From Chloroflexota bacterium (GTDB taxonomy: Bacteria; Chloroflexota; Dehalococcoidia; Lucifugimonadales; UBA3495), in the NCBI GenBank assembly GCA_002723125.1, contig PBNM01000004.1:130842-182835 (forward strand): a DNA stretch of 51,994 bases, in the 5' to 3' direction. A program made the translations under genes and the position numbers. Below, one piece after another: positions 7,320 through 44,361 of this stretch. How positions within the stretch are numbered: the stretch's first letter is position 1; every line of letters begins with the position of its first letter. The notes under the pieces are model-generated. The model was not told the origin of the DNA and did not search any database. It worked only from the letters and a program-made list of their open reading frames with translations.

Positions 7320-9071
7320 TTAACGAAGAATGAAATCTCCGAGAACCAATACATCCATGTTAGTCCTCAAGAAGCATTCTAGTGCTTCAGAAGGAGTGCA
7401 TACAATGGGTTCATTTTCATTAAATGACGTATTTAATATTACTGGTACACCAGTAATATTGTTGAATTCGTTGATCAAATTCCAGTATCTAGGATTTGAG
7501 TCCTTAGATACTGTCTGGATTCTGCTAGTACCATCAATGTGGACAACTGCAGGCAAGAGATCTTTTTTGTCAGGTTTAATGTTTGCATTCACTAGCATGT
7601 AAGGAGACGGTCTATCAGTATCAAAATATTCTGATACGGATTCTTCTAGTATTGAAGGAGCAAATGGTCGGAATGTTTCTCTTAGTTTAATCCGTTCATT
7701 CAGGATTTCTCTCATGTCATGTCTCCTAGGATCTGCAATTATGCTCCGATTACCTAATGCACGGGGGCCAAATTCTGTTTTTCCTTGGAACCATCCTATT
7801 ATTTTGCCCTCTGAAATGTCTTTGGCAGTGATTTGGCATAGCCTGTTAGTGTCAGTGAATTCTGTGACAGATTTGCCCGACTGAGCTATTTCTAGAGTGT
7901 AAGCTTCTAAAACTTCAGCAATTTGGTTTCTGTCATAGGAAGGCCCCCAGTATGCATGCTCCATAGGTTGTACCCTGGGATTGTCGAGAACATCATGCCA
8001 AACGTATAGTGCAGATCCTAGAGAAGTTCCTCCATCCCAAGCAGCTGGTTGAATATATAGTTCTTCAAAAGGAGTGTTATCTAAAATCTTCGAATTCATA
8101 GTGCAATTTAGAGCTACCCCTCCAGCCATCGTTAATTTTTTCAAGCCGGTTTTTTTGTGTAGTTTGTTCAGCATGTCGAAAACTACTTCTTCCAGACGCC
8201 TTTGCAACGAAGCTGCTATGCCGTAATAAAATTCAGTCATAGGCTCATCGTATTGACGTACTGGCTGGCCTAAAGCTTGAATTAAATTAGGTGAATAGAG
8301 GATATCTACTATAGGTTCTCCTTCCAGCCATTGCATACTATTCACATTTTTATGGTGAGTGAAGTAATTAAGATCCATTTTGAACCCAATCTGCCTTGGG
8401 TCTGTAGTGATTAGACTTCTGAAGAAGTCCATTCTATTTGGTGTGGCATAAGCTGCTAGAGCCATAGTTTTATATTCATCGCCAAACTTAGGCAATCCCA
8501 AGTATTGAGTAATAGCTGTATATAAAATTCCAAGAGAATGGGGAAATTTGACTGCGCCATCTATATGTAATTTATTGCCTCTACCGACACCCCACATAGC
8601 GCTTACAAAATCTCCAAAGCCGTCAACAGAAAAGACAGCAGATTCTTCGTAAGGAGAAGCATAAAAAGCACTAGCAATATGAGCTTTATGATGCTCTACT
8701 TTGTGTAGTTTAGGCTGAAAATTTGTGCTAACTGTGTTTAAACTTTGCTGTAATTCATCTTGTAAGTTGAGTACTTTGCTGTTGGCTTTTAAACGATCTA
8801 CTACTCCTGATACATTAGGTCGGTTTAGTAATGTAAAAAGCACTTTTTCCCAAAAATGGGCTTTAGGATTCCTGCAAATAGCTATGTGTTGTAAGTCTTG
8901 AGTGCCATAATTTGAAGCATCAACACAGAATTTTACTCCATGGTACGGGAAGCCTGCAGAGTGTTTTATTCGGGTAAATCTTTCTTCTTCTACAGCTGCA
9001 GTAAGTTCTCCATTGGTCAAAATTGCAGCCGATGCGTCAGCATTGTATGCATTTAATCCTAAAATTAACAT
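7320..9071 (-). CDS. Carbamoyltransferase, NodU/TobZ family
   Basis: Expected to form carbamoyl-adenylate from carbamoyl phosphate and ATP and pass the carbamoyl group to a sugar hydroxyl. The 583-residue length is normal for the family. The N-terminal Kae1-like (YrdC-unrelated) domain shows LGLNAYNADASAAI, EEERFTRIKHSAGFP, the metal-binding histidines in KVEHHKAHIASAF (His127, His128, His131), FSVDGFGD and MAGGVALNCTMNSK. The C-terminal domain begins near GWFQGKTEFGPRALGNRS, followed by ADPRRHDMREILN and RPFAPSIL, which match NodU and TobZ. Carbamoylation of surface sugars such as nonulosonates or aminohexoses is known for relatives. It lies between a GT4 gene and the propeller gene. Activity is well supported; the acceptor is unknown. 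Confidence 0.92.
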   Translation of the reverse strand: MLILGLNAYNADASAAILTNGELTAAVEEERFTRIKHSAGFPYHGVKFCVDASNYGTQDLQHIAICRNPKAHFWEKVLFTLLNRPNVSGVVDRLKANSKVLNLQDELQQSLNTVSTNFQPKLHKVEHHKAHIASAFYASPYEESAVFSVDGFGDFVSAMWGVGRGNKLHIDGAVKFPHSLGILYTAITQYLGLPKFGDEYKTMALAAYATPNRMDFFRSLITTDPRQIGFKMDLNYFTHHKNVNSMQWLEGEPIVDILYSPNLIQALGQPVRQYDEPMTEFYYGIAASLQRRLEEVVFDMLNKLHKKTGLKKLTMAGGVALNCTMNSKILDNTPFEELYIQPAAWDGGTSLGSALYVWHDVLDNPRVQPMEHAYWGPSYDRNQIAEVLEAYTLEIAQSGKSVTEFTDTNRLCQITAKDISEGKIIGWFQGKTEFGPRALGNRSIIADPRRHDMREILNERIKLRETFRPFAPSILEESVSEYFDTDRPSPYMLVNANIKPDKKDLLPAVVHIDGTSRIQTVSKDSNPRYWNLINEFNNITGVPVILNTSFNENEPIVCTPSEALECFLRTNMDVLVLGDFILR

Positions 9072-10247: not shown

Positions 10248-11360
10248 TCACTTAAGTAGGATATCCACGATTCTTTGGGAGGTTTTACCATCCCATAAAT
10301 CTGGGATAACCGAATCTTTTGAGTGTGCTGCGTCAATTGCATCTCTTATAAGTTCGGTCAATCCGGGTTCATTCGGATTGATTAAAGTATTTGTCCCCTT
10401 GCTGACGGTTATAGGTCTTTCTGTTGTGCTTCTTAGAGTGATGCAAGTAGTTTTAAGATATGTGGTTTCTTCTTGAATTCCTCCAGAGTCTGTGATCACG
10501 GCATTAGCATTTTTCAACAGGCATAAAAAATCAATATAGCCTAACGGTTGTATACAAATCATGTTATTTGAATTTATGTTCTTTGTAATACTGCGAATTC
10601 TACCTTCCGCTCTGGGATGGACTGGGAATATTATAGGATTTAAGGGAGGTAAGTTTGATACTGCACCTAGTAATGTTGCTAGAGATTCATCATCATCCAC
10701 ATTAGAAGGTCGATGCAATGTCAAAATGTTATACGGTATTATTTTCTCACTTCCTTGGGATTGTAAATTTAAATTTTGCAGGATTAGTGATTGATCAATC
10801 TTTTTCATGGATGATATGAGGGTATCAATCATGATATTGCCAACAAAATAAATATGGTCTTTTTTAATGTTTTCATCTGTTAAGTTAGAGTTTGCATCTT
10901 CTGATGGTGTAAATAAGTAAGATGAAATGTTATCAGTGATGATGCGATTGATTTCTTCTGGCATAGTGTAATCACGGGATCTTAAACCAGCTTCTACATG
11001 GGCAACTGGTATGGACAGTTTGGATCCCGCTAAAGCCCCTGCTAAAGTGGAATTAGTGTCCCCATAGACGATTATACTATCGGGCTTGAATTCGGTGATA
11101 GGTTTTTCGATTCGGATAAGCATTTCCGATAATTGTTGGAGTCCGTTACCTCCGGAAACTTCCAAATTGATGTCAGGCATTGGCAAGTTTAGTTCGTTAA
11201 AAAAAATTCCTGACATGTTGCTGTCAAAATGCTGACCAGTATGAATCAGGAGCTGCTCACAGGGGTTAGGTTGATTTTTGAGAGCTTTTATTAATGGTGC
11301 AGCTTTTATGAAATTAGGCCTAGCTCCAACTATATGTAAAATCTTGTTATTGTTGGCCAT
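10248..11360 (-). CDS. wecB: UDP-N-acetylglucosamine 2-epimerase (second WecB paralogue)
   Basis: A second non-hydrolysing UDP-GlcNAc 2-epimerase family member of about 370 residues. Motifs: ILHIVGARPNFIKAAPLIKAL, IHTGQHFDSNMSGIFF, VYGDTNSTLAGALAG, VAHVEAGLRS, PEEINRIITDN, LTLHRPSNVDD and TDSGGIQEETTYL. In this copy the first motif reads GARPNFIK rather than the GTRPEAIK of the copy at 688, a split seen between the two common subfamilies, so the two genes are not a recent duplication. Start choice is uncertain: the ATG at 11360 fits family N-termini, while the ATG at 11375 is directly preceded by GGAGG with no spacer. Both overlap the upstream GT4 gene. It may supply ManNAc- or a FucNAc-type UDP-sugar. 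Confidence 0.88.
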   Translation of the reverse strand: MANNNKILHIVGARPNFIKAAPLIKALKNQPNPCEQLLIHTGQHFDSNMSGIFFNELNLPMPDINLEVSGGNGLQQLSEMLIRIEKPITEFKPDSIIVYGDTNSTLAGALAGSKLSIPVAHVEAGLRSRDYTMPEEINRIITDNISSYLFTPSEDANSNLTDENIKKDHIYFVGNIMIDTLISSMKKIDQSLILQNLNLQSQGSEKIIPYNILTLHRPSNVDDDESLATLLGAVSNLPPLNPIIFPVHPRAEGRIRSITKNINSNNMICIQPLGYIDFLCLLKNANAVITDSGGIQEETTYLKTTCITLRSTTERPITVSKGTNTLINPNEPGLTELIRDAIDAAHSKDSVIPDLWDGKTSQRIVDILLK

Positions 11361-12549
11361 ATTGATTGATTGCATCCTCCATTAAGAATTCAACATTTTT
11401 CGCAACTAAGTCGTAAGAATATAATTCTAGAACTTTTTTTCGGGCAACTTCTCCTAGTTCTGTACGAAGTTCTTTTGACTCAATTAAGCGTTGCAGATGA
11501 CTTCGTAAATCTTTAACGTTTCCCGTTTCATAGCAAGTTCCTATTCCAAGTTTGGATCTTGCTTTTCCCCATGGCAGGTCAGTTATGATCACAGGAGTGC
11601 CACAAGCTGAGGCTTCAATACAACTCAAAGAAGATTCGCCAGGGTAGACACAAATGTCTGACATTTTCATCAAGGAGGGCAGTTGGGTGATTGGTACAAA
11701 AGATATGGTAAGCACTCTATTAGACACACTAGATAATTGGAAAGGTTCCATACATTGTTTTATGAAGGCAGAATTACCCCCTCCTACAAAAATCAGCCAT
11801 AAACTAGGGTCGTCAATCATTAGTGGCAACATGGCTTTAGTTAATATGTCGGTTCCTTTTTCTTGTGATAGTTTCCCTGTTTGCATTATTATTGTTGCAT
11901 CATCAGGAATCCCATAGTATGTTCGAGTTCGTGGTGATGATTTAAGGTCGTCTCCAAATATACCAGTATCTATTCCAAAATCTAATTTGCCTACTTTAGC
12001 TGGATTTATACCTTGTTGAGTAATCATAAATTCGCATGATTCATCACTCATACCTAGGAAAGAAGAAACGTTTTTATTTAAGTATATTTTGGTTAATAGC
12101 TTGAGAGCGAAATAATACATTCTAGCAAGAATCCCAGATCTTTGAGCAACAAAAGCCATATGATTGTCCATTATCAATGGTATACGGAGCTTTTTTGAAA
12201 TGTTAACTAATGCGAAAGCTAATGGAGAACTCGTACCGTGGCAGAAAATAATATCAGGGTTAATCTCTTTAATTTTCATGAATAAGCCTGAGAGCCAGAT
12301 ACGTCTTTTGAATTCGAGTTTTACAGGCAGCCTATGAATGAGAACATTCTCAATAGTTTCTGTTGATTCCCCAATATGCCGAGGACCTAATATATGCTGC
12401 CAGGTGTTTTCATAGTCAGGTACTGGAGTGTATCTGTCCGAGGTTATTATATGAACTTCGTGCCCATGCTTAGCGTTCCATTTTGGGAGTATGAATTCTT
12501 GGTAACCCATCTCTGGCATGACGTAATCTGCAACATGTAAAATGTTCAT
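11347..12549 (-). CDS. Glycosyltransferase family 4
   Basis: A 400-residue GT-B transferase. The N-terminal domain starts NILHVADYVMPEMGYQEF and continues with KWNAKHGHEVHIITSDR, the usual acceptor-side pattern. The C-terminal domain has KVGKLDFGIDTGIFG, MQTGKLSQEKGTDILTKA, LWLIFVGGGNSAF, and SLSCIEASACGTPVIITDL, which contains the conserved Glu of the E-x7-E motif. Its stop overlaps the start of wecB2 and its start overlaps the stop of the preceding SDR gene by one base, so translation is likely coupled on both sides. The sugar specificity cannot be told. Confidence 0.85.
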   Translation of the reverse strand: MNILHVADYVMPEMGYQEFILPKWNAKHGHEVHIITSDRYTPVPDYENTWQHILGPRHIGESTETIENVLIHRLPVKLEFKRRIWLSGLFMKIKEINPDIIFCHGTSSPLAFALVNISKKLRIPLIMDNHMAFVAQRSGILARMYYFALKLLTKIYLNKNVSSFLGMSDESCEFMITQQGINPAKVGKLDFGIDTGIFGDDLKSSPRTRTYYGIPDDATIIMQTGKLSQEKGTDILTKAMLPLMIDDPSLWLIFVGGGNSAFIKQCMEPFQLSSVSNRVLTISFVPITQLPSLMKMSDICVYPGESSLSCIEASACGTPVIITDLPWGKARSKLGIGTCYETGNVKDLRSHLQRLIESKELRTELGEVARKKVLELYSYDLVAKNVEFLMEDAINQYGQQ

Positions 12550-28500: not shown

Positions 28501-29946
28501 CTATACTCGATTTGACATAATATCTGATATTGTGTCACCTATAAATTTACCAGCTACACCAGGATTAATATTCACTTCATTTTCGAATAGCTGTTTGCGA
28601 TTTTCCTGATGAATATCAGGATTCTTTAAATAATTGATGATATTAGCTTCTAATTCTTTAAATGTTCTAACCGTAGCGCAGCTTTGATATTTTAAGATAT
28701 GGCTTAGATGCCGAGTTTTTTCTAGCTGGTCAGAATTGGCTAATTGGCGCCATTTGTACATGCTTATATTAATGGTTGGCTTGTTGAATACTGTAGATTC
28801 TAATATAAGAGTTGAATATTCCTGCAGTAAAATTGCAGAATGGCATATTGCTTCTGCCATCGAATACATGTCAGACATCGACAATTGATTGTTAGAATCC
28901 AGATGAGGTTGGTCAGGAAGCCAGAAGTTGATTAATTCACCGTATTTTTGAGTTAGTTTAGTATATTCTTCAGCAAATTTTTCAGTGAGGACGAATTTTC
29001 CATCAACAGTGTGCATGTGTAAAGGATGAAATCTGACAAGCAATTGTAAATCATATTCTTTCAAGTCGTTTGCTATTAGATTCATGATTCCATCGACTAC
29101 CGTAAATCTTTTCTCGAAATTGGTAGGACCACTTAATGCATATAGCAGTATTTTTTTCTTAGAATCCAAGCCATGTGTTTTGCAAAATGTCTTGATGTCA
29201 CCTGGTTTGAATTCTCCGTTAAGGTACTTATCCCAGTGGGCTACCCCACCTATGATGATATTGTTAGGATCCAAATCATGGAAGATTTGCATTTCTTCTT
29301 TCATGTTTCGGTTCCATGCAAACGCAAAGTCTGGCTTGCTTCCTCGGTAGCCATTCACTGATGGGTTATCCCAGCTATGTGGGATGGATATTATTTTACA
29401 ATCATATCGTTTTGCTGCGTTCATTATATGAGGATCTATCCCGTAGCCTAATGATGATATCAGCAATGTCGAAGGTCGATATTTTACAAAATATGGATTG
29501 TATATATCTCCAGAAAATAACCGTGATATTAATAGAGTTAGTAATGTTCTAGCCCATTTAGAATTTGATGTAACCCAACATATAACAGACATAATCAAAA
29601 AGATTAAAGGCCCAAATCCTTTGCTGAATTCTTCTTTGTATTGCATTTTCAAGAAATGTTTTATGGTGGTATTTTTGATTTCTTTTGAACTGCCAGAAGT
29701 CATTATACGAATCAGATTTACTATGGTTCGGAGTTTGCTTTGACGTAGTTCATTGAACAATTCTTTATAGTGTACTGACTCGATTATGATATTCTCGTGG
29801 TTGAGGGATTTACGAAAGTATTCAACTTCATCATCCGCAACAAAGAACACAATTTTGTGACCTCTTTCAATGATACTCGTCAAGATATCAGTGCAAGCGA
29901 TGTATCTCATGCTAAATGACCTGTATGCTTGTATGAATATTGTCAT
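28501..29946 (-). CDS. GT-B fold transferase, capsule/CDP-glycerol transferase-like (paralogue A)
   Basis: A 481-residue protein with one strongly hydrophobic stretch around residues 110-140 that may touch the membrane. The GT-B landmarks are in the second half: ISIPHSWDNPSVNGYRG, IIIGGVAHWDKYL, LLVRFHPLHMH, and the loop HSAILLQEYSTLILESTVFNKPTINIS, equivalent to the donor-binding S-x-E region of CDP-glycerol transferases and capsule transferases. It shares the SWDN-x-x-V-x-GY, GGV-x-H-x-D and LLVR-x-HP motifs with the neighbouring gene at 29950, so the two are paralogues. Donor unknown; CDP- or CMP-linked groups are plausible given the locus. Nine bases separate it from asnB. Confidence 0.65.
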   Translation of the reverse strand: MTIFIQAYRSFSMRYIACTDILTSIIERGHKIVFFVADDEVEYFRKSLNHENIIIESVHYKELFNELRQSKLRTIVNLIRIMTSGSSKEIKNTTIKHFLKMQYKEEFSKGFGPLIFLIMSVICWVTSNSKWARTLLTLLISRLFSGDIYNPYFVKYRPSTLLISSLGYGIDPHIMNAAKRYDCKIISIPHSWDNPSVNGYRGSKPDFAFAWNRNMKEEMQIFHDLDPNNIIIGGVAHWDKYLNGEFKPGDIKTFCKTHGLDSKKKILLYALSGPTNFEKRFTVVDGIMNLIANDLKEYDLQLLVRFHPLHMHTVDGKFVLTEKFAEEYTKLTQKYGELINFWLPDQPHLDSNNQLSMSDMYSMAEAICHSAILLQEYSTLILESTVFNKPTINISMYKWRQLANSDQLEKTRHLSHILKYQSCATVRTFKELEANIINYLKNPDIHQENRKQLFENEVNINPGVAGKFIGDTISDIMSNRV

Positions 29947-31422: not shown

Positions 31423-32328
31423 TTAACTAGAGTATTTTAGTTTAACTCGATTAGGTTTCTCGATTTCCATTATAGATTCGGTTTTGAAGTTTAAGGCTTT
31501 CGATACCGCGATAGTATCTTTTCGCACTCTTCGTAGCCCATCGGGTTCAAGAGATGCAGCATGGTCTGTTCCCTTCCATGCGCGGTCTAGAGTGAAATGC
31601 CGTTCTATAAAATCAGCTCCTAATACGAATGCAGGACCATCTAGTCCGATTCCTGTGTAATGGGCTGAAAATCCAATTCCTTTGACCACACTACCATATG
31701 TTGACTTTAATCTACTTATTGACAATAGGCATATGTCCTCTGGAGGCACAGGGTATCCTGAGGTGCAATGGTAGAGCACTAATTGTTTTAGGCGACCATT
31801 AGCCTCAAAAACACTGATTATTTTGTCTTCTTCTTCACTCGTGGTCATACCTAATGATAAATGTATATCTCCAGAGTAGTTTTGGCATAAATGCTCTAAC
31901 ATTTTGTAGTGAGTGTTAGAAGGTGAACCAATCTTTATGAATGGCGGATTTAACTCTACTATTTCCTTGGCTGAAGTTAGATCCCAAACTGACGTGCTGT
32001 ATCCAATATCTACCTCTTTGCAATATTGCATAAGTTCTTTGTGTTGATTAGCTGATAATTCCAAGAATTCTCTGTGGTCTCCATACGTTTTTCCATATGA
32101 ATTTTCTTGTACTGGGTGAGGAGCATTATATTGGGCAGGTGTTAATAATTCTTTTGGATTACGCTTTTGAAATTTCACGAACTGAGCATCACAAAATACT
32201 TTTGCGACGCGAATCATTTCTTTAGCAATTTCAAAATCTCCTTTATGGTTACATCCAATTTCGGCAATTATGGTTGGAGGTTCTCTTTGTACTAGTGTAT
32301 TTATGTCTATTGAGTGATTAAGATTCAT
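31423..32328 (-). CDS. neuB: NeuB-family nonulosonate synthase without SAF domain
   Basis: A 301-residue (beta/alpha)8-barrel enzyme that should condense PEP with a mannosamine-type or related aldose. NeuB motifs are clear: TIIAEIGCNHKGDFEIAKEM, QFVKFQKRNPKELL, DIGYSTSVWDLTSA, FIKIGSPSNTHY, LSLGMTTSEEE, YHCTSGYPVPPEDI, GIGFSAHYTG and DFIERHFTLDRAWKGTDHAASLEPDG. The usual C-terminal antifreeze-like (SAF) domain of NeuB, which contributes an arginine to the partner subunit's active site, is absent: the protein ends about 20 residues after the barrel. It lies next to a radical SAM protein and is quite distinct from the full-length NeuB encoded at 35163. A different or phosphorylated substrate is possible. 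Confidence 0.85.
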   Translation of the reverse strand: MNLNHSIDINTLVQREPPTIIAEIGCNHKGDFEIAKEMIRVAKVFCDAQFVKFQKRNPKELLTPAQYNAPHPVQENSYGKTYGDHREFLELSANQHKELMQYCKEVDIGYSTSVWDLTSAKEIVELNPPFIKIGSPSNTHYKMLEHLCQNYSGDIHLSLGMTTSEEEDKIISVFEANGRLKQLVLYHCTSGYPVPPEDICLLSISRLKSTYGSVVKGIGFSAHYTGIGLDGPAFVLGADFIERHFTLDRAWKGTDHAASLEPDGLRRVRKDTIAVSKALNFKTESIMEIEKPNRVKLKYSS

Positions 32329-32335
32329 AATATTT

Positions 32336-33439
32336 TTACTTCAGCGAATCTTTTGAATTCTTATTGATAATTTGATGCAATTTTGTTTGATCACATCGAT
32401 TAGCACATTTGTAGTTCTCGGGGAAATTACCTTTCAAATGCCATTCTCTTAAGAGATTGTATTTTTCTCCATTCCATATGTTTTCTAGTGAGTCTTCCTT
32501 GACGTTACCTAATTTCATCTCGCAATTGTAATCCTGAGTGCATGGAACAACGTCACCATTAGCCATAACTGTCATTGAAGACCATGGGTACTCACAGTAT
32601 TGTTGGGCGTAATGTGATTTATTAGTCATTTCATCATCTTCTTCGTAATACCATCTATTGTCTTGGCTTTTGACATATGCATATACGTCTAAATCCTTCC
32701 ACATATCCAAGAATTCTTGTTGCATTGATCGATTGTCTACATTTTCGTTTAATTCAATCATGGTAGGAACAATTAGTGTTTTATAACCTTTAGCGTCGCG
32801 CATTGCTATTACATCTTTAATGGTCTGGTAGGCTTTTTCAAAATTGTTGTATTTACCTCTTATACGTTTTGCATTGGAGTCATCCAATGCATCTATAGAG
32901 CATTTTAATACTGTTAATCCTGCCTCCATGATAGATTCTGCTCTTTTGACAGATAAATTCGCAGGGACACATGAAAAATAAGTAGGGATATTACGATCAG
33001 TACATGCCTGAACGCGGTTAACAATATTTTTATCTACCAAAGGTTCTCCATATCCATGTAAGATTACACACCGGGAGACTACATAGAAATAGAATGCGTT
33101 TTCGGAATGTTCGTCAAAATTGATTCCATATTCGGTATTTATAAATTGCCAGAAAGCTTCCATGCTCTCAGGAGTATGAGGGGTCATTTGATCCAATACA
33201 TTTGCAAATGTATTATCATCTATCCAGTCAATATCTCTGGTCATTAGGCTGGTCCGAGGACACATTATGCAAGTCATATTGCAGTGATTGGTCGTTTCGA
33301 TGTTGAATACGTGTGGCTTATGTGATCTGAGGGATTCCAATTGTTCTTCGATTTTCACAATGTCTTTGCTGGTGATTCGCCCTTGCATTAATTCTTTTTT
33401 TAGAACGTCTGCTTTGTGTATAAAATTTATGTCATACAT
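32336..33439 (-). CDS. Radical SAM protein with SPASM-like C-terminal domain
   Basis: A 367-residue enzyme with the [4Fe-4S] motif C-x3-C-x2-C in NHCNMTCIMCPRTS (Cys53, Cys57, Cys60). A segment HGYGEPLVDKNIV matches the usual GGEP region, and LKCSIDALDDSNAKRIRGKYNNF is typical of the barrel. The C-terminus has a SPASM-type cysteine set: CEYPWSSMTVMANGDVVPC, the later NCEMKLGNV, and CANRCDQ, for auxiliary cluster(s). An insertion of about 35 residues lies between the cluster motif and HGYGEP. No substrate can be read; the position between a SAF-less NeuB and a Gfo/Idh dehydrogenase argues for a radical step on a sugar, such as epimerisation, dehydration or C-H oxidation. Confidence 0.85.
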   Translation of the reverse strand: MYDINFIHKADVLKKELMQGRITSKDIVKIEEQLESLRSHKPHVFNIETTNHCNMTCIMCPRTSLMTRDIDWIDDNTFANVLDQMTPHTPESMEAFWQFINTEYGINFDEHSENAFYFYVVSRCVILHGYGEPLVDKNIVNRVQACTDRNIPTYFSCVPANLSVKRAESIMEAGLTVLKCSIDALDDSNAKRIRGKYNNFEKAYQTIKDVIAMRDAKGYKTLIVPTMIELNENVDNRSMQQEFLDMWKDLDVYAYVKSQDNRWYYEEDDEMTNKSHYAQQYCEYPWSSMTVMANGDVVPCTQDYNCEMKLGNVKEDSLENIWNGEKYNLLREWHLKGNFPENYKCANRCDQTKLHQIINKNSKDSLK

Positions 33440-36213: not shown

Positions 36214-36924
36214 TCAATTCTCCATTATAAGATTTGAAGGCTGGGAGAGTATTGTTAAATGCCTGAGTAGAGGATGCATAATATAGTAATTGTGTCCGTG
36301 AGGGTCTTGTTCTGTTATACCGGTGAATTTATTGTCACTCATGTATTTGGTGATTACCTCTGATAACACCTGTGACCTAATGAATGGATCATATTCATGG
36401 TCAATAGTGGACCAATCCTCAGGAGGATCGAATTTACGCCTGATAACTAGAGGTCCCGTATCGATGTTATTGTCTATCAGAATGGCTGCTGCACCACATG
36501 ATTGCTCTTGTAGAAGGCTATAATAAATGGTGGTACTTCCTTTATAGTCAGGTAAATATCCAGGATGGATATGCAGAAATTGTTTGCCAGTTTTGAGTAT
36601 ATTGTCTCTTATGATCGCTCCTCCAGAGCCTGAATAGATAAATATATTCACAGCTGATTGGTTTAAGGTCTCCTCTACGCCTGGATCATTAATGTTGTTC
36701 GTGTTCAGGAGGGTGACGTTGGTAGACATTCGATTTAATAGTTCAATGCTGCTTGATTCTGAATCAAATAATGTTGTGTTATGTGTGACACCAGAAATCT
36801 TGGGAGCACCATTTTCAAGCAATATGGCTTGTTCTAAACGGATTTGATCTTTCAAGAGACAAGATAAATAAGCTCTGGTTCGTAGTGTGTCAACTCCTAA
36901 TATCCCGATATTAATAGTCTTCAT
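36214..36924 (-). CDS. Formyltransferase (Fmt/ArnA-like), probable sugar N-formyltransferase
   Basis: A 236-residue protein with the N10-formyltetrahydrofolate-dependent formyltransferase core. The hallmark loop appears as FLHIHPGYLPDYKGSTTIYY at about residues 117-135, with the catalytic His120 followed by PGYLP. The catalytic Asp is in NNIDTGPLVIRR (Asp155). The first residue of the classic Asn-x-His triad is His118 instead of Asn. The first 90 residues are a degenerate Rossmann-like half. It lacks the C-terminal tRNA-binding domain of true Fmt, so a sugar amine is the more likely acceptor. It is directly upstream of neuB (one base), so a formylated nonulosonate precursor is an obvious candidate. 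Confidence 0.82.
   Translation of the reverse strand: MKTINIGILGVDTLRTRAYLSCLLKDQIRLEQAILLENGAPKISGVTHNTTLFDSESSSIELLNRMSTNVTLLNTNNINDPGVEETLNQSAVNIFIYSGSGGAIIRDNILKTGKQFLHIHPGYLPDYKGSTTIYYSLLQEQSCGAAAILIDNNIDTGPLVIRRKFDPPEDWSTIDHEYDPFIRSQVLSEVITKYMSDNKFTGITEQDPHGHNYYIMHPLLRHLTILSQPSNLIMEN
36218..36223 (-). promoter_or_regulatory. Shine-Dalgarno site of the full-length neuB gene
   Basis: The minus strand reads GGAGAA, five bases before the ATG at 36212, inside the last codons of the formyltransferase gene. It fixes the start of neuB and supports coupled translation. Confidence 0.65.
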
Positions 36925-37501
36925 GAATTTGACACTTCTCTATTAAACATTGTACGGAATATAGTTCAAACTGGATTGATATATTGATAAGAGCTTTCAA
37001 CTCTTTTTCTAAAGTTTTTTCATACGTAGAAATGACTAAATCATTTAATTTAAGCGCGGTGTTAAGGTATCGATAATTATCGGAATTTTGTTGTTCTGAC
37101 AGTAGTATTAAAGCGAATAAAATGTAATTAATTAACTGCTCGTACAGTTTTGATTTAGGTTTGAAATTTTCATCGTAATCAGAATATATACGTTTAGACA
37201 CTTCAAATCTTTGTAACAACCGCTCAATCCACTCAGAATCTCTCGATGTATCATCAATCAACTCAAGAAGCTTTTTAGAGGTAGGAGTTGTGCACAGTCC
37301 TTCTATGCCGTATTTTTCACTGATGTTGTGTAGTGGGGAATTATTAGAGATAGGCGTATACGACAGTCCTATTTTTTTTAAAAATGAACACCGGTTTTCG
37401 AAGTAGTCAGTTAAAAATTGAATACCATGCCATGGCGTGTAATGGTAATGTTCTTTAGTAATTAATCTATCAGTTTCAGTATATGTGTATGTGTTACTCA
37501 T
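36911..37501 (-). CDS. Protein of unknown function
   Basis: A 196-residue protein that I do not recognise. It has no signal peptide, no membrane segment and no cofactor motif. The first 60 residues are rich in Tyr and His (YTETDRLITKEHYHYTPWHG), and the last 80 residues look all-helical, with NYILFALILLSEQQNSDNYRYLN and repeated Leu/Ile heptad-like spacing, consistent with a small helical scaffold. Eight bases overlap the CDP-amidate kinase-like gene upstream and 14 bases overlap the formyltransferase gene downstream, so it is surely translated with them. It may be an accessory subunit of either neighbour; nothing in the sequence decides. Confidence 0.75.
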   Translation of the reverse strand: MSNTYTYTETDRLITKEHYHYTPWHGIQFLTDYFENRCSFLKKIGLSYTPISNNSPLHNISEKYGIEGLCTTPTSKKLLELIDDTSRDSEWIERLLQRFEVSKRIYSDYDENFKPKSKLYEQLINYILFALILLSEQQNSDNYRYLNTALKLNDLVISTYEKTLEKELKALINISIQFELYSVQCLIEKCQIHEDY

Positions 37502-38003
37502 AAAATGTATCTTTCACATTTTCAAAAATCAACTCCGCCGCTTCTTTCGCCGTTGTTAGTTCAGGGATATTTTTGACAGTTAGATCGGGATACTCAGGGG
37601 GATTGAATGCGATGTCGTACCCTACCACATTTTTGTTTTCGGATGATGAATATAATCCCTTTTGATTACGTTGAGTAATAATGGCCATCGGCACGTCTAA
37701 ATATACTTCATAATATTCATTGTAATTCAGTCTATTCCATTCACGGTCTTCTTTGAATAATGACAGGATTGAACATATTACGTTAATATTTTGTGAATCT
37801 AGATGCTTACATAAATTTCTTATCCGTGAGGCGTTTATTTTTCTGTCCTCTAGGGAATAGCCCAAATCATTCATCATAATCTTGCGTATATCATCACCAT
37901 CGATAAAAACACAGTTTGAATGTGAAGTATTCACACGTTCGTATAGGTGTTTACCTATAGTAGTTTTACCTGAACCGGGTAATCCTATAATCCAAATCAC
38001 CAT
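37494..38003 (-). CDS. APS-kinase-like enzyme, predicted cytidine diphosphoramidate kinase (Cj1415-like)
   Basis: A 169-residue P-loop kinase of the adenylylsulfate kinase fold. Walker A is IIGLPGSGKTTIGKHLYE; FIDGDDIRKIMMNDLGYSLEDR matches the APS-kinase DGD-x-x-R ... DLG-x-S-x-x-DR motif; and QRNQKGLYSS matches its R-x-x-KGLY motif. No ATP sulfurylase gene is near, but the genes before it match the glutamine kinase, amidohydrolase and cytidylyltransferase of the C. jejuni O-methyl phosphoramidate pathway, in which the homologous Cj1415 phosphorylates the 3'-OH of cytidine diphosphoramidate. I therefore predict that role. Start: ATG at 38003 with AAGGAAG eight to nine bases upstream, one base after the preceding stop; an ATG at 38024 would overlap. 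Confidence 0.85.
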   Translation of the reverse strand: MVIWIIGLPGSGKTTIGKHLYERVNTSHSNCVFIDGDDIRKIMMNDLGYSLEDRKINASRIRNLCKHLDSQNINVICSILSLFKEDREWNRLNYNEYYEVYLDVPMAIITQRNQKGLYSSSENKNVVGYDIAFNPPEYPDLTVKNIPELTTAKEAAELIFENVKDTFYE

Positions 38004-38004
38004 G

Positions 38005-38802
38005 TCAGGCTTCCTTTGTTCCAATGTAGACTAAGACGTTGCAAAATTGATCTGGGAATAGAACAGTTAATATCTTGTCAAAAAATTTACCGATAACATT
38101 CAGTTTGTATCCTTCTGAACGATTGGTAGCCTCAGATGAATTATATAAAGAAAAAAATTTGAATCTGTATAATATTGAAACATTTTTGGCTTTGTGGGTA
38201 TGCCTTGTGACTAGCTGATGGTCTTTAAGCAATTCTTCAAATTCTTTGGATGTAAACAGCATCCTGTGGAATTCTGTTTTTGACGAAATTGAATTATTAT
38301 TCTTGTTCCTTATGTTATTCCAATACCACTCGTTGAGATTCATTTCCCAGTTATCGGGTCTAATCGATATACAAAATTGACCGTGTTGTTTTAATATCCT
38401 AGAACATTCGGATAATGCGGTTTTAATCTCTGATAAATTTTCGATATTGTGGTATACCCCAAAGGCTAATACGTTGTCATAAGTTGAATCTGGATGATTC
38501 AATTTGATAGCATCTCCTGATTGTATTGGGAGATTTGAGTCTGATTTTTTTGCGTTTTCAACCGCTACTTGGCTACGTTCTATTCCTTCTATGTTGAATC
38601 CCTTGTAAAAATAATGCTTAAGCACGCGACCTGCACCGCATCCAATTTCCAAGGTTTTCTGAGTTTTTTCTGTCATAATCATTTCGGCGTATTTAATCGG
38701 ATATATATTGGTGTTAGTGAATTTGGATTGATCTTCTCCAGCCTCTTCCCATCTTCTGTCCCAGTATTGGCTATTACTTTCCTTCCTATAAACTTTTTTC
38801 AT
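38005..38802 (-). CDS. Class I SAM-dependent methyltransferase in the phosphoramidate cassette
   Basis: A 265-residue methyltransferase. The SAM-binding motif I is KTLEIGCGAGRVLKHYF, followed by FNIEGIERSQVAVENAK (acidic residue binding the ribose), DAIKLNHPDSTYDNVLAFGVYHNIEN and LKQHGQFCISIRP. The start SNSQYWDRRWEEAGED is typical of small-molecule methyltransferases. It is embedded between the predicted cytidylyltransferase and the CDP-amidate kinase, with 17 bases overlapping the former. In C. jejuni, the cassette makes an O-methyl phosphoramidate and has methyltransferase genes beside it, so O-methylation of the phosphoramidate is the likely role; methylation of a sugar remains possible. 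Confidence 0.82.
   Translation of the reverse strand: MKKVYRKESNSQYWDRRWEEAGEDQSKFTNTNIYPIKYAEMIMTEKTQKTLEIGCGAGRVLKHYFYKGFNIEGIERSQVAVENAKKSDSNLPIQSGDAIKLNHPDSTYDNVLAFGVYHNIENLSEIKTALSECSRILKQHGQFCISIRPDNWEMNLNEWYWNNIRNKNNNSISSKTEFHRMLFTSKEFEELLKDHQLVTRHTHKAKNVSILYRFKFFSLYNSSEATNRSEGYKLNVIGKFFDKILTVLFPDQFCNVLVYIGTKEA
38010..38017 (-). promoter_or_regulatory. Shine-Dalgarno site deciding the start of the CDP-amidate kinase-like gene
   Basis: The minus strand reads AAAGGAAG ahead of the ATG at 38003, with a spacer of six bases, and lies within the end of the methyltransferase gene. It favours the ATG at 38003 over the in-frame ATG at 38024. Confidence 0.6.
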
Positions 38803-39538
38803 TTGTTATGACGCTATCAAAGTATTTTTCAGCAATCTTTAAATCATTCAAGGAGTCAATTTCGAGCCAATTACGATTGATGTGTACTGGACTTATTCCT
38901 ACAGGGTCTTGTGTGAGTATTTGAAGAAGGTCTGTCATATACATATGCTTGGCTTGATATTGGTCTACTTCATACAGAGTTTTGTAAGCATTGACTAGTT
39001 TAGTTTTACCTGATGAGTTGACGTGGATTAATCCTATGTACTGAGATTCTATTTCATTGATGTCGTTTGGTTTTTGTCCAATGGAATAGATTTTGCCATT
39101 ATTTATTTTTAATGATTCAGCGTCGTCTAACGGGTTTTCAAATCGCTCACGCCAATATTCTTGCCAGCCGTCATCAACAACAACAGAGATCGGCTGTTTA
39201 GATTCGATAAGTTTTTCCAAGACATTGGGAGAATATAAAATATCGCCATAAGAAACTATGAACTCTGTTTCCATTATCTCTTCAGCACAAAATAGAGAAT
39301 AGACCATATTGCTACTGGCGAATTCATGGTTGTGTACGGTGGTAATTTCGGGTAGGTTAATCGCTTCATTTTGAAATCCCGTTATCACGACTATGTTATC
39401 TATCCCAATAGATCTTGCTATATTGATCTGCCATTGCAATATGCTTTTGCCGTTGATTGGAACTAAGCATTTGGGCAAACCCTTAGTGATTGGCATTAAC
39501 CGCGTCCCCATACCAGCTGCAAGAATTATGAGTTGCAT
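38786..39538 (-). CDS. Nucleotidyltransferase, predicted CTP:phosphoglutamine cytidylyltransferase (Cj1416-like)
   Basis: A 250-residue sugar-nucleotidyltransferase fold protein. The NTP-binding signature is intact at the N-terminus: LIILAAGMGTRLMPITKGLPKCLVPINGKSILQ-type sequence (residues 3-34), with VITGFQNEAI and the metal-binding VSYGDILYSP following. Family-specific features seen here are NHEFASSNMVYSLFCAEE and DDGWQEYWRERFENPLDDAES. In C. jejuni Cj1416 couples CTP to L-glutamine phosphate to give CDP-L-glutamine; the gene order here (kinase, amidohydrolase, this gene, methyltransferase, kinase-like) supports the same role. On its own the sequence would also fit a choline-P or sugar-1-P cytidylyltransferase. 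It overlaps both neighbours by 13-17 bases. Confidence 0.83.
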   Translation of the reverse strand: MQLIILAAGMGTRLMPITKGLPKCLVPINGKSILQWQINIARSIGIDNIVVITGFQNEAINLPEITTVHNHEFASSNMVYSLFCAEEIMETEFIVSYGDILYSPNVLEKLIESKQPISVVVDDGWQEYWRERFENPLDDAESLKINNGKIYSIGQKPNDINEIESQYIGLIHVNSSGKTKLVNAYKTLYEVDQYQAKHMYMTDLLQILTQDPVGISPVHINRNWLEIDSLNDLKIAEKYFDSVITNEKSL

Positions 39539-40194
39539 AGTTCAATCCAATAATTGAATAAGGCTTCGTCCAATCCATTGGAACTAGTTGTCCTTTCAGG
39601 GTGCCATTGGATACCCAATATGGGTAAATTGGGGTGATAAAATCCTTCTACAAGAGTGTTTTCCCAAGTAGCAAAAGGTTTTAAGCACTTGCTCAAATCG
39701 TCCATACATATACCGTCGTCATGATATGAATTAACAGATACTTCTGAATCAGAAAATTCGGGTATGATTGGATTTGTTAGAATATTGATATTGTGATTAC
39801 TGGCTACTGGATGGTCTTTGGATTTACTAATGTTTGAAGTAATTGCGCCTTTGAAGAATTTGTTTATTAGTTGAAAGCCTCTACAAGTCCCAAGTATAGG
39901 TAATCCCATTCTTATCCCATTTTCTAAAATGCTCAATTCTGAAATATCTCTTTGGTGGTAGATGTTTTCTGTGTGGTTTGTGGGGTTATCTATGATGGAA
40001 TCACCCCCGCTTATTATTATTCCGGACAAACTAATTGAAGCCATAAAAGATTGAATGTCTGCCGAATAGTTTGGTAGTAATATGGGAGATATGCCGTAGT
40101 TGGATAAATAATTTATCCAATCATGGCTAATACTATCTCGGTATTCTACGTACGATGTGTTTTCTGTTATTCTCATGGTTAAACCTATTAGCAT
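39526..40194 (-). CDS. Class I glutamine amidotransferase-like hydrolase, predicted gamma-glutamyl-CDP-amidate hydrolase (Cj1417-like)
   Basis: A 222-residue enzyme of the peptidase C26 / gamma-glutamyl hydrolase group. The nucleophile elbow is LGTCRGFQLIN with Cys104, and the His-Glu pair is in GIQWHPERT (His198, Glu200), completing the triad. SGIIISGGDSI contains the oxyanion-loop glycines. The homologue Cj1417 in C. jejuni hydrolyses CDP-L-glutamine to L-glutamate and cytidine diphosphoramidate, and the neighbours support that role. It starts one base inside the end of the glutamine kinase gene (TGATG), a mark of coupling, and overlaps the cytidylyltransferase gene by 13 bases. The alternative, a PuuD-like polyamine catabolic enzyme, has no support from the neighbourhood. 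Confidence 0.87.
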   Translation of the reverse strand: MLIGLTMRITENTSYVEYRDSISHDWINYLSNYGISPILLPNYSADIQSFMASISLSGIIISGGDSIIDNPTNHTENIYHQRDISELSILENGIRMGLPILGTCRGFQLINKFFKGAITSNISKSKDHPVASNHNINILTNPIIPEFSDSEVSVNSYHDDGICMDDLSKCLKPFATWENTLVEGFYHPNLPILGIQWHPERTTSSNGLDEALFNYWIELCNS

Positions 40195-43100
40195 CAGATG
40201 CCTTTAACCGTTTTATTGACGCAGTCTAGTTCAATTGTGGCATATGATTTCAATTTATTGTAAATATCGGGACCGCAACCTATAGCAGCAGGTATCCCGA
40301 ATTCAGCTGCACGAATTGACATGTGTGAAGCTGCTCCTCCATGTTCAGTGATTAACCCCGATATGCTGTGACTAAATATCCAATCATACCCTGGGTCAGC
40401 AGATGAAATCATGATGATTTTGCCAGCTAATGATGGGTTTGACCGGGATTCATCCAGTATCACTGGGGTTGCTGTAATGCGGCTATCAGAAATGTAATTG
40501 GGTTCACTTTTCAATAATTTAAAATATGATATGTTCGTGTCAGCACTGATCAAGTGAGGTAGTTTAGTGTGGCATGTCAAATTCCATTTTTTTTCTTGAT
40601 ATTGTTTGATCCTGATGAGTTCAGATTTGATTGCTGGACTTGGACTTTCTGCGGCTAATTTTTCGAACTCATGGATGCTTAAGTATGACAAATCATCTCT
40701 AGAGAATCCGATTAATTGCCCAAGTTCTGTAATTGATTCCAGTATTTCGTTTACTAATTTCATGAACTCAAACTTTGCTAACTCTCTAGCTTGGATACTA
40801 TGTGTTATAAAACTGATCAGTTGTTGGGGTGTAGTATTCAAGCCGGACTGTTCTATTTGTTCCTGAAGAATTATAGAATAGTTATTTAAAATATTTTCAG
40901 TTTCCAACCCATTAGTGTTGATTCCAACGGCAGGCTCACTTAATATGCGCGTGAAATATTTAAGGTGGCCATTTTTATAATTGTCAGAAGTTATATCGTA
41001 GGAACTGGGTCTTAGGTGACCGTACTTTTCTAAAAAGTGCTTTAATGAGAGAGTTCCGTTTTGGTAACTAGCAATATCTGCTGTCATGTTTGATGCGATG
41101 GTAGGAATGCTTTTATAAATCTTACCGAGTTCTGATTCAGATATACATCCATTATTGACTAAAGATTTGAGGATGGCAATTGATACAAAAGCACATCTGG
41201 CCAATTTGGCAAAAATTAATGTGCCATGGGTTTCACATGCAAATAATAAATCTGAGATTTTATTACTAAGTTGTGTGATTGATTGAGGTTTTTGATTTAT
41301 AGACCATGTTTCTAAAATGGCTCCTAATGAATTTAATGAATCTAATTCCTGTGAGAGGTCAATACTTTGTTCAGATATCATGTCGTTTGTTATGGTGATG
41401 AGCGCATTCTTGAAATCTGCAATATCATCTTCTGTTAAGCCTGCATTCTTCATATTGGATGTATATTGTGAAAAATTAAAATCATAACATGTAGGAGTTA
41501 ACTCGAATTCGATTTTGTCGTGAAGTTCTGGGTTCCTCTGAAGATTATTCAGACAATGATTTATCCATTTGTTTGCTGTGTCGTTGCTTAATTTAGAAGG
41601 TAAGAATGAGTTGAGACTAAGTTTTATGTTTACGTAAGGGATTCCTCCTAATGATTGTATCAATTGCTTACCTTGCATATCCATGTACCCGAGTTCTGCC
41701 CGGGATTTGGCCCAACTTCGTTGACCGATGAGTCTTTGGTATAAAGACAAAGCTAAAGGTCTTGGTGTTGTTCCTAACATTTCAACGGGGTTCCAATCTG
41801 ACATAGTTCCAAGTAAAACGGAATTTCCTGCTGATACTTGGTCCGAATCAGATAAAGAATGTATAAATTGTTGAATATTATCAAGTTGTTCGTAGAGGTC
41901 TTCATCTTCAAGAATGTATTTTCTAGCTTTGGTTGAGATTGGTCGTAACTGGAATAAATAAAGTTCTTTTGAATCATCTATCCCGAATTCAATGTCTAAA
42001 TCCGATAAGTTAGTTTGAATTTCAAGCTCCTGTACCAGAGCAACACATTTTTGCACGTGTTCATCATTGTATTTATGGACTCTTTGAAGTAATTTCTTAT
42101 TGATATATATAGTTTCTATGTTTGTACCACTTCCACTTGTTACCCCGTCGGTTGAGCCAGGATTCCGATCGATATTAATTAACATGTACGGAGCTGCTGA
42201 TTCTAGATCTCTTGTAAATATCACGCCATTAGCAGTTAAATTGCTTTTATATTCTTGGACGAATATTTCATCAGTTGTCATTGTTTTATTATTGACTGCT
42301 TCATAGCTGCTAAAAACTTCTGAGACAGCCCGTTTAATTTGGATTTTATTATCAGCAGATATTCCTTGTACCGTTTTAAATAGGCCCGCGTTGGACACTT
42401 GTGCGTTGTCTTCAGCAGCTGACGAACTTCTAACGATAATATGAGAATCTGCAAACTTTTCCGATATGGATTGGATAATGTTTTCCGAGTTATCTAACCA
42501 GTCAAAATATGAAAATTTGTATTGTTCTAATACTGTTGCAGACTTCAAAACATGCCTGACTTGTTCTAGAGTTTTTGCTTTCCCCTGAAAAATGGTTTGG
42601 GCTAAATATACTGGTCTATCAAGAGGCGCGACTAATGTGTTGAGATTGATGCTAGTACAAGGCAGTGAATTCCTGAGATTTTCGATTAGATCTTCTAGTT
42701 GGGACTTTGGTTTATGAATTGATAAAGTGTTCACTTGGTTTAGAAATTTATTACATAATTTATTTGGTACGTACATTATTCCCGCAAATTCTGAGTAGTC
42801 TGATTCTAGGAAATTTCCCCCGATACAAATTTCTTTCAGGCTTGCACTGATTTTAGGGTATGTTTCTGGTAATAGGACAGTTGAGGCTCTGATTAATATC
42901 AAATCTGATTCGGTTTCGTTTTCGAACAGTGCTAGGCCTGAGGTTTCCCCACTCGTGTTCCACGTTTGATGATACAAAAAATTGAATTGCGGATAAGATT
43001 GGATGACTTTTTGAATCTGATATCCTCCGATGTATGTGATATTTTTCAGGCCATTTTGTAGCGTGAATTGATATATCCAATCCAATACAGTAGATTGGTC

Positions 43101-43199
43101 ATCTAGGTTTGATAGGGAATTAGGCAGACTTTTTGTTTGATCGAGTCTCCTTCTGCCTCTATTGCAGTCCAATATTATTACTTGTGTTGAATCATTCAT
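40194..43199 (-). CDS. PEP synthase-like enzyme, predicted L-glutamine kinase (Cj1418-like), with N-terminal nucleotidyltransferase-like domain
   Basis: A 1001-residue protein. Residues about 1-200 resemble a degenerate nucleotidyltransferase: the loop at 14-32 (RGRRRLDQTKSLPNSLSNL) keeps the arginines but has Pro-Asn where active enzymes have Pro-Lys. Residues about 220-440 are the PPDK-type ATP-grasp, with HIIVRSSSAAEDNAQVSNAG and ELYLFQLRPIS. A DWNPVEMLGTTPRPLALSLY segment follows. The C-terminus is the swivelling phospho-His domain, ITEHGGAASHMSIRAAEFGIPA, with catalytic His959. In C. jejuni Cj1418 transfers the ATP beta-phosphate to the amide nitrogen of L-glutamine. The full order of neighbours supports that reaction. 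Start and length are unambiguous. The N-terminal domain may bind nucleotide or the cytidylyltransferase partner. Confidence 0.88.
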   Translation of the reverse strand: MNDSTQVIILDCNRGRRRLDQTKSLPNSLSNLDDQSTVLDWIYQFTLQNGLKNITYIGGYQIQKVIQSYPQFNFLYHQTWNTSGETSGLALFENETESDLILIRASTVLLPETYPKISASLKEICIGGNFLESDYSEFAGIMYVPNKLCNKFLNQVNTLSIHKPKSQLEDLIENLRNSLPCTSINLNTLVAPLDRPVYLAQTIFQGKAKTLEQVRHVLKSATVLEQYKFSYFDWLDNSENIIQSISEKFADSHIIVRSSSAAEDNAQVSNAGLFKTVQGISADNKIQIKRAVSEVFSSYEAVNNKTMTTDEIFVQEYKSNLTANGVIFTRDLESAAPYMLINIDRNPGSTDGVTSGSGTNIETIYINKKLLQRVHKYNDEHVQKCVALVQELEIQTNLSDLDIEFGIDDSKELYLFQLRPISTKARKYILEDEDLYEQLDNIQQFIHSLSDSDQVSAGNSVLLGTMSDWNPVEMLGTTPRPLALSLYQRLIGQRSWAKSRAELGYMDMQGKQLIQSLGGIPYVNIKLSLNSFLPSKLSNDTANKWINHCLNNLQRNPELHDKIEFELTPTCYDFNFSQYTSNMKNAGLTEDDIADFKNALITITNDMISEQSIDLSQELDSLNSLGAILETWSINQKPQSITQLSNKISDLLFACETHGTLIFAKLARCAFVSIAILKSLVNNGCISESELGKIYKSIPTIASNMTADIASYQNGTLSLKHFLEKYGHLRPSSYDITSDNYKNGHLKYFTRILSEPAVGINTNGLETENILNNYSIILQEQIEQSGLNTTPQQLISFITHSIQARELAKFEFMKLVNEILESITELGQLIGFSRDDLSYLSIHEFEKLAAESPSPAIKSELIRIKQYQEKKWNLTCHTKLPHLISADTNISYFKLLKSEPNYISDSRITATPVILDESRSNPSLAGKIIMISSADPGYDWIFSHSISGLITEHGGAASHMSIRAAEFGIPAAIGCGPDIYNKLKSYATIELDCVNKTVKGI

Positions 43200-43209
43200 T
43201 AGGAGACAG

Positions 43210-44361
43210 TCATAGTACGTCTAAATTACTGTCATAATTCAATAATTTATTGCTGCGTATGAGATGAGATATCTTAAATAATTGGATGAGGACTTTAATT
43301 CTCCAATGTACAAGTCTGAACTTGCCAGATGATTTTGTGAGACCCGACAGGTTGTTTTTTAGTTCCCAAAAGGATGCAACGAAAGCTAATAGTATTGTAA
43401 ATTTAGGGGAAGCTTGGGAATGTGTGTGAGTACTGTCAAACTCATATAAGTTTAATCGTCTAAAACAATCAATCTCAAAATTTGTGACAGAGTTACTCAG
43501 AATGCTAGGTTTATCAGATATTCTCCCGGTATTTAAAGATTCTTGTCTAGCGTTACCACCATATGGGATACCAAGGATCGTCATGTGTTCGGTAGACTCA
43601 GTTTTATTAATATTCAAGAACTCGCAGAGTTTGCTTGTTTGCGACTCTTGATCCTGCCTGAAACTTCGAACCGAAGTTATGTAGAGGTTAGGATGATTTT
43701 TGTTGTGCTTAATTACATTTGATATTTGTTGGTAGGTTCTCATCCAATACACGGCCCCTTTCTCAGTTCTTATATCGTAGAATTCGTTTGGGCTAATTGA
43801 TTCCAGATAATTGTGCCGTAGGGATGAGTAGCTTTCTAAAGGATTTCTGTAAGGGAAAATTAGCTTTGAGTTTTCAAATAATTCTCGATTTGACCAATCA
43901 AACCCTCTTGCAGTACAAAGCATGGAGTAATAGTCAATTTCTTTATTTCTATATTGACTATTTGACTCTTGATAACATTTGAAGAAGTAATTTAGGTATT
44001 CGAGGCTGGTCATTTGAGAATCTTGCTTTCTAGATAATAGATCTTCAAACAGCGTCACATCAAATGGTCCTATGTGGCTCCCTGATTTGTAATTGGATTT
44101 CGTGATGGATAAGGTATTTCGAGATATTCGTTCTTCGAATCTTTCTTTGAAGTGAGATATGAATTGCTGGTTAAGTTTGGTGACCTTAGCAAATTGCTCG
44201 CCTTTGCTTACTTGTTTAAATACGGTAAAGAAATGGAATTCAGATGGCCAATTTAAAATTTTAGGATGATTGTCGAGTAATGAGTGTATCGCACTATTTG
44301 CAGAACGAGGGGCACCTACTAGGAAAAGAAATTGGATTTGGTTTGGTTTGGATGACTGCAT
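43210..44361 (-). CDS. Sulfotransferase-fold protein, candidate phosphoramidate or sulfate transferase
   Basis: A 383-residue protein with the two nucleotide-binding motifs of PAPS-dependent sulfotransferases. The 5' phosphate loop is FLFLVGAPRSANSAIHSLL (residues 11-29), and the 3'-phosphate motif is LIFPYRNPLESYSSLRHNYL, matching R-x-P-x5-S-x3-H. It lies ten bases upstream of the glutamine kinase gene. The predicted end product of the cassette is a 3'-phospho-CDP-phosphoramidate, the cytidine analogue of PAPS, so a sulfotransferase-fold enzyme could transfer the phosphoramidyl group to the glycan. That is my inference. Plain sulfation with PAPS made elsewhere in the genome is the alternative. 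No membrane segment is evident. Confidence 0.75.
   Translation of the reverse strand: MQSSKPNQIQFLFLVGAPRSANSAIHSLLDNHPKILNWPSEFHFFTVFKQVSKGEQFAKVTKLNQQFISHFKERFEERISRNTLSITKSNYKSGSHIGPFDVTLFEDLLSRKQDSQMTSLEYLNYFFKCYQESNSQYRNKEIDYYSMLCTARGFDWSNRELFENSKLIFPYRNPLESYSSLRHNYLESISPNEFYDIRTEKGAVYWMRTYQQISNVIKHNKNHPNLYITSVRSFRQDQESQTSKLCEFLNINKTESTEHMTILGIPYGGNARQESLNTGRISDKPSILSNSVTNFEIDCFRRLNLYEFDSTHTHSQASPKFTILLAFVASFWELKNNLSGLTKSSGKFRLVHWRIKVLIQLFKISHLIRSNKLLNYDSNLDVL

Follow-up and report, generated by a model that had tools for sequence, protein, structure and literature searches.

A predicted phosphoramidate-donor cassette of seven overlapping genes in a surface-glycan locus of a Chloroflexota bacterium

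In the literature surveyed, O-methyl phosphoramidate (MeOPN) is described from Campylobacter only, and phosphorus–nitrogen (P–N) bonds in glycans are treated as a near speciality of that genus (PMC6429109, PMC3907429). The reactions of the Campylobacter jejuni donor pathway up to 3'-phospho-CDP-phosphoramidate follow PMC6429109, work cited in PMC10919079 and general background. The four genes concerned, cj1415–cj1418, lie in a capsule-type locus, and the cassette also has the methyltransferases cj1419/1420 and the transferases cj1421/1422. Outside Campylobacter, a CTP:phosphoglutamine cytidylyltransferase has been predicted, on structural grounds, in a glycan region of Cobalt Borg, an archaeal extrachromosomal element for which no formyltransferase or kinase is named in the main text (PMC12660748). 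A P–N linkage has been observed chemically as a phosphoramide in the lipo-oligosaccharide of Xanthomonas campestris (PMC8042644). A literature search combining phosphoramidate, formyltransferase, gene cluster and polysaccharide brought up a single Campylobacter paper, on an unrelated matter.

The window, that is, the whole stretch of 51,994 nt analysed here, holds the cassette in a 47-gene block on one strand (positions 1–51994), with gaps of at most 29 nt. The block encodes sugar-nucleotide enzymes, glycosyltransferases, two NeuB-type synthases (at 31423 and 35163), cytidylyltransferases, an ABC transporter and a capsule-synthesis protein. A carbamoyltransferase (7320–9071) is found in the same block, and a SPASM radical-SAM protein (32336–33439) adjoins the nonulosonic-acid pathway. 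A preliminary description had named five adjacent minus-strand genes, GlnK to APSK in transcription order, and each frame was found where it had been placed (Table 1). The boundary drawn around these five was too narrow, as it left out H196 and FMT (36214–37501): from GlnK through FMT all six junctions overlap (by 1, 13, 17, 20, 8 and 14 nt), whereas the flanks do not (a 10-nt gap before GlnK and 1 nt after FMT), and the cassette therefore comprises seven genes (43199–36214). Chance is excluded by the 1001-codon open frame, whose probability in random sequence of the same composition is about 2e-30, together with the homology of four enzymes to a C. jejuni-type locus.

Table 1. Positions in the window and predicted products of the cassette genes and of the adjacent upstream gene
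Gene	Position	Strand	Length (aa)	Product and features
ST	43210..44361	-		Sulfotransferase-fold protein directly upstream of GlnK; PF13469
GlnK	40194..43199	-	1001	Predicted L-glutamine kinase, Cj1418 family
Hyd	39526..40194	-	222	Predicted gamma-glutamyl-CDP-amidate hydrolase, Cj1417 type; class-I GATase/C26 fold
CT	38786..39538	-	250	Predicted CTP:phosphoglutamine cytidylyltransferase, Cj1416 type
MT	38005..38802	-	265	Class I SAM methyltransferase of a cassette-linked family, not Cj1419/1420
APSK	37494..38024	-	176	Predicted CDP-phosphoramidate 3'-kinase, Cj1415 type; start TTG or Met8
H196	36911..37501	-		Conserved all-helical protein, FMT partner; without assigned function
FMT	36214..36924	-		Formyltransferase-fold protein, PF00551; His (HIHPG) in place of the catalytic Asn, Asp155 kept

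A locus from a Campylobacterota genome (L134) served as the C. jejuni-type reference. Besides the four enzymes and two methyltransferases, it encodes an 'O-methyl phosphoramidate transferase' (NF058596) and a P450, and has KpsC/S-like and heptose genes; the protein at the Cj1427 position is nearly identical to PDB 6VO6, a C. jejuni protein. Apart from the inserted MT, the order GlnK–hydrolase–CT–APSK is the same in L134, in agreement with the C. jejuni order claimed earlier, and the pairwise comparison with the reference is significant for all four enzymes: GlnK (33.5% identity, E 1e-137), Hyd (27%, E 6e-21), CT (38.6% over 249 columns, E 2e-63) and APSK (38.8%, E 4e-38). The domain content that had been claimed was borne out by Pfam and NCBIfam searches, and the catalytic motifs said to be intact (His959; Cys104/His198/Glu200; the nucleotidyl loop LAAGMGTRLMPITKGLPK; Walker A GLPGSGKTT; KGLY) are all present, aligning with invariant or near-invariant columns in alignments of 40–96 relatives each. 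The window differs from C. jejuni in the absence of Cj1419/1420-type methyltransferases from the cassette, which has another methyltransferase, and in the presence of H196 and FMT, a kinase with a CT-derived N-terminal domain and a hydrolase that scores below the curated cut-off.

The core of GlnK, from about residue 200 to 1001, is built of an ATP-grasp PPDK_N domain (PF01326) and a phospho-His domain (PF00391) that contains His959; these were the only Pfam matches, and the PEP/pyruvate C-terminal barrel (PEP-utilizers_C) was not found. Residues 200–999 match NF004508 (PRK05849, which contains Cj1418) with 805 bits against a cut-off of 501, compared with about 55 bits for the PEP synthase family. 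The L134 kinase reaches 1173 bits with NF004508, which ties this family to Cj1418. In a tree with Escherichia coli PpsA as the outgroup to 97 kinases, PpsA falls outside all of them on a branch of length 5.1, and the window GlnK groups with the kinases of L023, L024 and L025 (support 98), three loci that likewise have H196 and FMT, with Campylobacter elsewhere. Score and tree thus place GlnK in the Cj1418 family, apart from PpsA, and rule out a PEP synthase or PPDK. When 96 kinases of many phyla, those of Campylobacter among them, are aligned, conservation reaches 93% or more in 89 columns, one of which is His959 (His737 of the C. jejuni-type protein), suggesting a single reaction.

Residues 1 to about 200 of GlnK form a degenerate CT-like domain, which the cassette CT profile matches with 28.6 bits (E 2e-9). 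Kinases longer than 900 aa are found in about half of the GlnK loci, their additional ~200 residues resembling the cassette CT; the profile matches the N-terminal domain of 42 such fused kinases, the best with 136 bits, and the nucleotide-binding signature of this domain is eroded. Judged by its sequence, the N-terminal domain of the window GlnK is a decayed copy of the CT encoded two genes downstream, probably a regulatory or scaffolding remnant, and the natural fusion links the kinase to the cytidylyltransferase. Cj1419/1420-type methyltransferases accompany none of the 52 fused kinases (>900 aa) in the GlnK loci, versus 15 of the 45 others.

The best NCBIfam match of Hyd, NF045546, scores 110 bits, below the cut-off of 250 (the L134 hydrolase scores 328 bits), and the protein is therefore called Cj1417-like only and not filed as a member of that equivalog. 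Its triad is 98–100% conserved in 77 relatives, and Cys104, His198 and Glu200 align with Cys101, His178 and Glu180 of the C. jejuni-type protein. In CT, the signature GxGxR...PK and Asp99 are invariant or nearly so, with G9, G11, R13, K23 and D99 kept.

The APS-kinase-like enzyme scores 152.7 bits with NF004041 (cut-off 127) and keeps Walker A, DGD and KGLY in the alignment of its relatives. In a tree of 41 cassette APSKs and nine canonical CysC proteins (one of E. coli, the other eight of carrier genomes), a branch with support 99/99 splits the CysC proteins from the cassette enzymes, and the window APSK, for which a tight grouping with CysC had been named as the opposing outcome, is on the Cj1415 side. 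It lies within a 21-row cassette group (100/97), outside the neighbouring group of seven Campylobacter rows; cassette-located proteins from L059, L073 and L084 fall with CysC. In the Mycobacterium tuberculosis CysC, Phe492 and Phe576 stack on either side of the adenine of APS, an arrangement common to other APS kinases (PMC4373884). By our own alignment these residues are the Phe of LGF and of FTG, each present in 9 of 9 canonical CysC proteins, compared with 4/41 and 0/41 of the cassette kinases; in the window APSK they are replaced by Tyr and Val, and the APS adenine clamp is lost. Searches of the organism's own genome (94% complete), positive in controls, found no PF01507 (CysH/CysD type) and no PF01747 ATP sulfurylase gene, so APS synthesis is not visible there, and no second APS-kinase-like gene was found in it. 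On the tree, the clamp residues and a genome lacking an APS source, the CysC or sulfation reading was rejected, and a CysC role is very unlikely. Ordinary glycan sulfation would have APSK making PAPS for a true sulfotransferase, ST, while the kinase, the hydrolase and the nucleotidyltransferase made an unrelated activated sugar. Membership of APSK in the APS kinase superfamily and the sulfotransferase domain of ST agree with this scheme, which is nevertheless highly improbable given that neither type of ATP sulfurylase was found, that APSK groups with the cassette kinases and lacks the clamp, and that several other carriers have a canonical CysC in addition.

Regarding the transfer step, ST matches PF13469 with 42.4 bits (cut-off 27), and its family is also present in the cassettes of L055, L028 and L141. 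The GlnK loci compared here, being the top matches to the query, do not form a random sample; their frames were called by a simple script, so the absence of a gene from a GC-rich locus is weak evidence. APSK is missing from 53 of 97 GlnK cassettes, and these often carry a CDP-glycerol glycerophosphotransferase-like gene. ST-family genes were found near GlnK in 7/44 APSK-bearing versus 0/53 APSK-less loci (p 0.003), and the PF04464-domain family, counting weak matches, in 4/44 versus 16/53 (p 0.012), p-values that overstate independence because the loci share ancestry; the latter family scores above 290 bits in 15 loci, for none of which the gene table lists an APSK, and the contrast is smaller once weak matches are counted. 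This pattern suggests that a 3'-phosphorylated donor would go with a sulfotransferase-fold transferase and plain CDP-NH2 with a CDP-type transferase, and we infer that ST is a candidate glycan phosphoramidate transferase using a 3'-phosphonucleotide donor. Homology of ST to the Campylobacter MeOPN transferase could not be demonstrated, a profile comparison (hhalign) giving a probability of 1.4%. A 481-aa protein of the window (28501–29946) has a weak PF04464 CDP-glycerol glycerophosphotransferase domain, the transferase class found in APSK-less cassettes, and is a second candidate transferase. In addition, a family of about 425 aa, which recurs in seven GlnK loci and is often encoded between APSK and the methyltransferase, may be a further transferase; its members include L060:14338-15633 (no Pfam match), L028:15029-16294 and L053:14476-15918.

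The frequency of APSK-less cassettes also bears on whether the same donor pathway might lead to a different P–N product, with a kinase acting on another amide, or a donor serving a small molecule or lipid instead of a glycan. The enzymes have diverged from their C. jejuni counterparts, and at 27–39% identity their substrates may have changed, to another amide or nucleotide for instance. We regard such a product as improbable in view of the strongly conserved kinase columns and of the rest of the locus, which is devoted to sugar biosynthesis and glycosyltransferases.

The position of MT within the cassette is not accidental, since seven orthologues above 160 bits were found, all in APSK-bearing cassettes (L055, L060, L081, L076, L027, L086 and L040). 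With the C. jejuni methyltransferase pair it shares generic similarity only (best E 6e-4), and by sequence it is a member of a cassette-linked family distinct from Cj1419/1420; no Cj1419/1420-type methyltransferase was labelled near the window GlnK. NF058596, the MeOPN transferase family, had no match in the genome, a weak negative as the control genomes also gave none. With a methyltransferase of another family and this weak negative, the 'MeOPN-like' end product proposed earlier is unsupported, and the product is probably a phosphoramidate-type decoration that need not be MeOPN.

The last two genes of the cassette belong together. H196 matched no Pfam or NCBIfam family; its model is all-helical (pLDDT 85.8), with no PDB fold match at E<0.001, and the fold candidates tried (Foldseek, VIA-align) were middling helical matches with Z up to 7.7, so no fold was assigned. 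The FMT model (pLDDT 90.6) aligns over 210 residues with methionyl-tRNA formyltransferase (Z 18.9, rmsd 4.2). The catalytic Asn, present in the five solved formyltransferases of the alignment, is His in 29/29 relatives, in which His118, His120 and Asp155 are likewise kept (29/29); Tyr19, Arg183 and His217 are further invariant residues. Near GlnK, H196 was found in 26/97 loci and FMT in 40/97, FMT being the next gene in 23 of the 26, and the two are fused in a single chain in L070, L041, L048 and L036. As an independent check, 298 Campylobacterota genomes were compared, of which 67 carry GlnK and five H196, all five being GlnK-positive (chance 5e-4); in three of these H196 is on another contig than GlnK, still adjacent or fused to FMT. 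H196 lies beside Cj1419/1420-type methyltransferases in none of its 26 loci, versus 15 of the 71 loci without it (p 0.009), an exclusion that weakens without Campylobacterota (p 0.098) and is not independent of phylogeny; too few pairs were informative for a phylogeny-independent comparison. In L143, at about 10977–12044, a CT (355 aa) is fused to the C-terminal part of H196, which is another link between H196 and the cassette.

We infer from these associations that H196–FMT may be an alternative tailoring or transfer step. FMT could instead be a normal N-formyltransferase that acts on an amino sugar in the neighbouring nonulosonic acid pathway, with the pair unrelated to phosphoramidate and the core of the cassette unaffected, as its fold and the NeuB and CMP-transferase genes directly after it would allow. 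This explanation is the strongest of the competitors considered, and is still unlikely: the catalytic Asn is His throughout, H196–FMT accompanies GlnK also in loci where NeuB does not adjoin, and the two proteins are fused or adjacent everywhere and, among the Campylobacterota, restricted to GlnK-bearing genomes.

L055 and three further loci are among the closest known systems. The order GlnK-Hyd-CT-APSK-H196-FMT recurs in L055 (Planctomycetota), which also shares MT, ST and a 261-aa neighbour and whose APSK is 49% identical to that of the window; its kinase, unlike that of the window, has no N-terminal domain. The same order is found in a Lysobacterales MAG (L023), Magnetovibrio blakemorei MV-1 (L024) and a Kangiellaceae MAG (L025), which, unlike the window, have no MT in the block. 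The kinases of all four have diverged from the window GlnK, with 40% identity at best. A profile scan of genome contigs with a seven-sequence alignment gave at least 588 candidate stretches, at least 561 of which encode relatives, from bacteria and archaea of many phyla, so that rarity outside Campylobacter, as had been supposed, does not hold in general. The best 80 of these at least 561 include Pseudomonadota, Campylobacterota, Planctomycetota, Verrucomicrobia, Chloroflexi, Bacteroidetes, Omnitrophota, Nomurabacteria, Peregrinibacteria, Bacillota, Haloferax, Woesearchaeota, Pacearchaeota and others; matches were found on 14 plasmids as well. Within the organism's own phylum the kinase gene is rare, occurring in the window genome only among 400 sampled (E<=1e-20). 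The assembly of the organism yielded no bacterial 16S gene; among 45 named genomes, its RpoB is most similar to those of two Anaerolineales (1209 and 1161 bits, the next 881), which suggests Chloroflexota, perhaps Dehalococcoidia. Two DPANN contigs, L046 and L050 (Pacearchaeota, Nanoarchaeota), carry APSK-MTc-GlnK-CT-Hyd, the Campylobacter-type set (MTc, Cj1419/1420-type methyltransferase). A 9.5-kb record labelled 'Bacteriophage sp.' (MT837632.1, 673–3006) and one IMG/VR contig (L103) contain GlnK relatives that may be phage-borne or host contamination.

The scheme proposed here is drawn from what the loci show, namely which genes they hold, the homology and family placement of the products, their conserved residues, and the co-occurrence and fusion of the genes; the reactions and the roles of ST, H196–FMT and MT are predictions. 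GlnK would use ATP to phosphorylate the amide nitrogen of glutamine via phospho-His959, CT would couple the phosphorylated glutamine to CTP, Hyd would remove glutamate to leave CDP-NH2, and APSK would phosphorylate its 3'-OH, yielding a donor that resembles PAPS. From this donor the phosphoramidate would be passed to a sugar by a transferase, for which the adjacent ST is the likeliest choice. Working as a single unit, H196 and FMT would carry out a tailoring or transfer step in place of the twin methyltransferases of Campylobacter, and MT may add a methyl group. We hold with good confidence that the seven genes form a phosphoramidate-donor cassette of a surface-glycan locus working in this way. 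Donor synthesis, the core of the preliminary description, is thus well supported by homology and family placement as a predicted function, and its views of the end product, rarity and boundary are replaced.

The sequence evidence points to a pathway that is broad in bacteria and archaea, and culturable carriers exist, among them Magnetovibrio blakemorei MV-1 and Cohnella panacarvi. More tentatively, and with somewhat more doubt than belief, we suggest a widespread bacterial and archaeal phosphoramidate decoration with at least two types of end product, one methylated by Cj1419/1420-type enzymes and the other made by H196–FMT through a new reaction, the transferase following the donor. If true, H196–FMT would be a previously undescribed two-protein enzyme with a His-for-Asn formyltransferase fold, acting on the phosphoramidate donor or product. 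The pair is a conserved enzyme that lacks an assignment, although the context of its substrate is clear, and the apparent division of donors into 3'-phosphorylated and plain ones, each with its own type of transferase, is a testable rule. In C. jejuni the decoration has a part in how phages recognize the cell and in its interaction with the host, and the same may hold in the other carriers.
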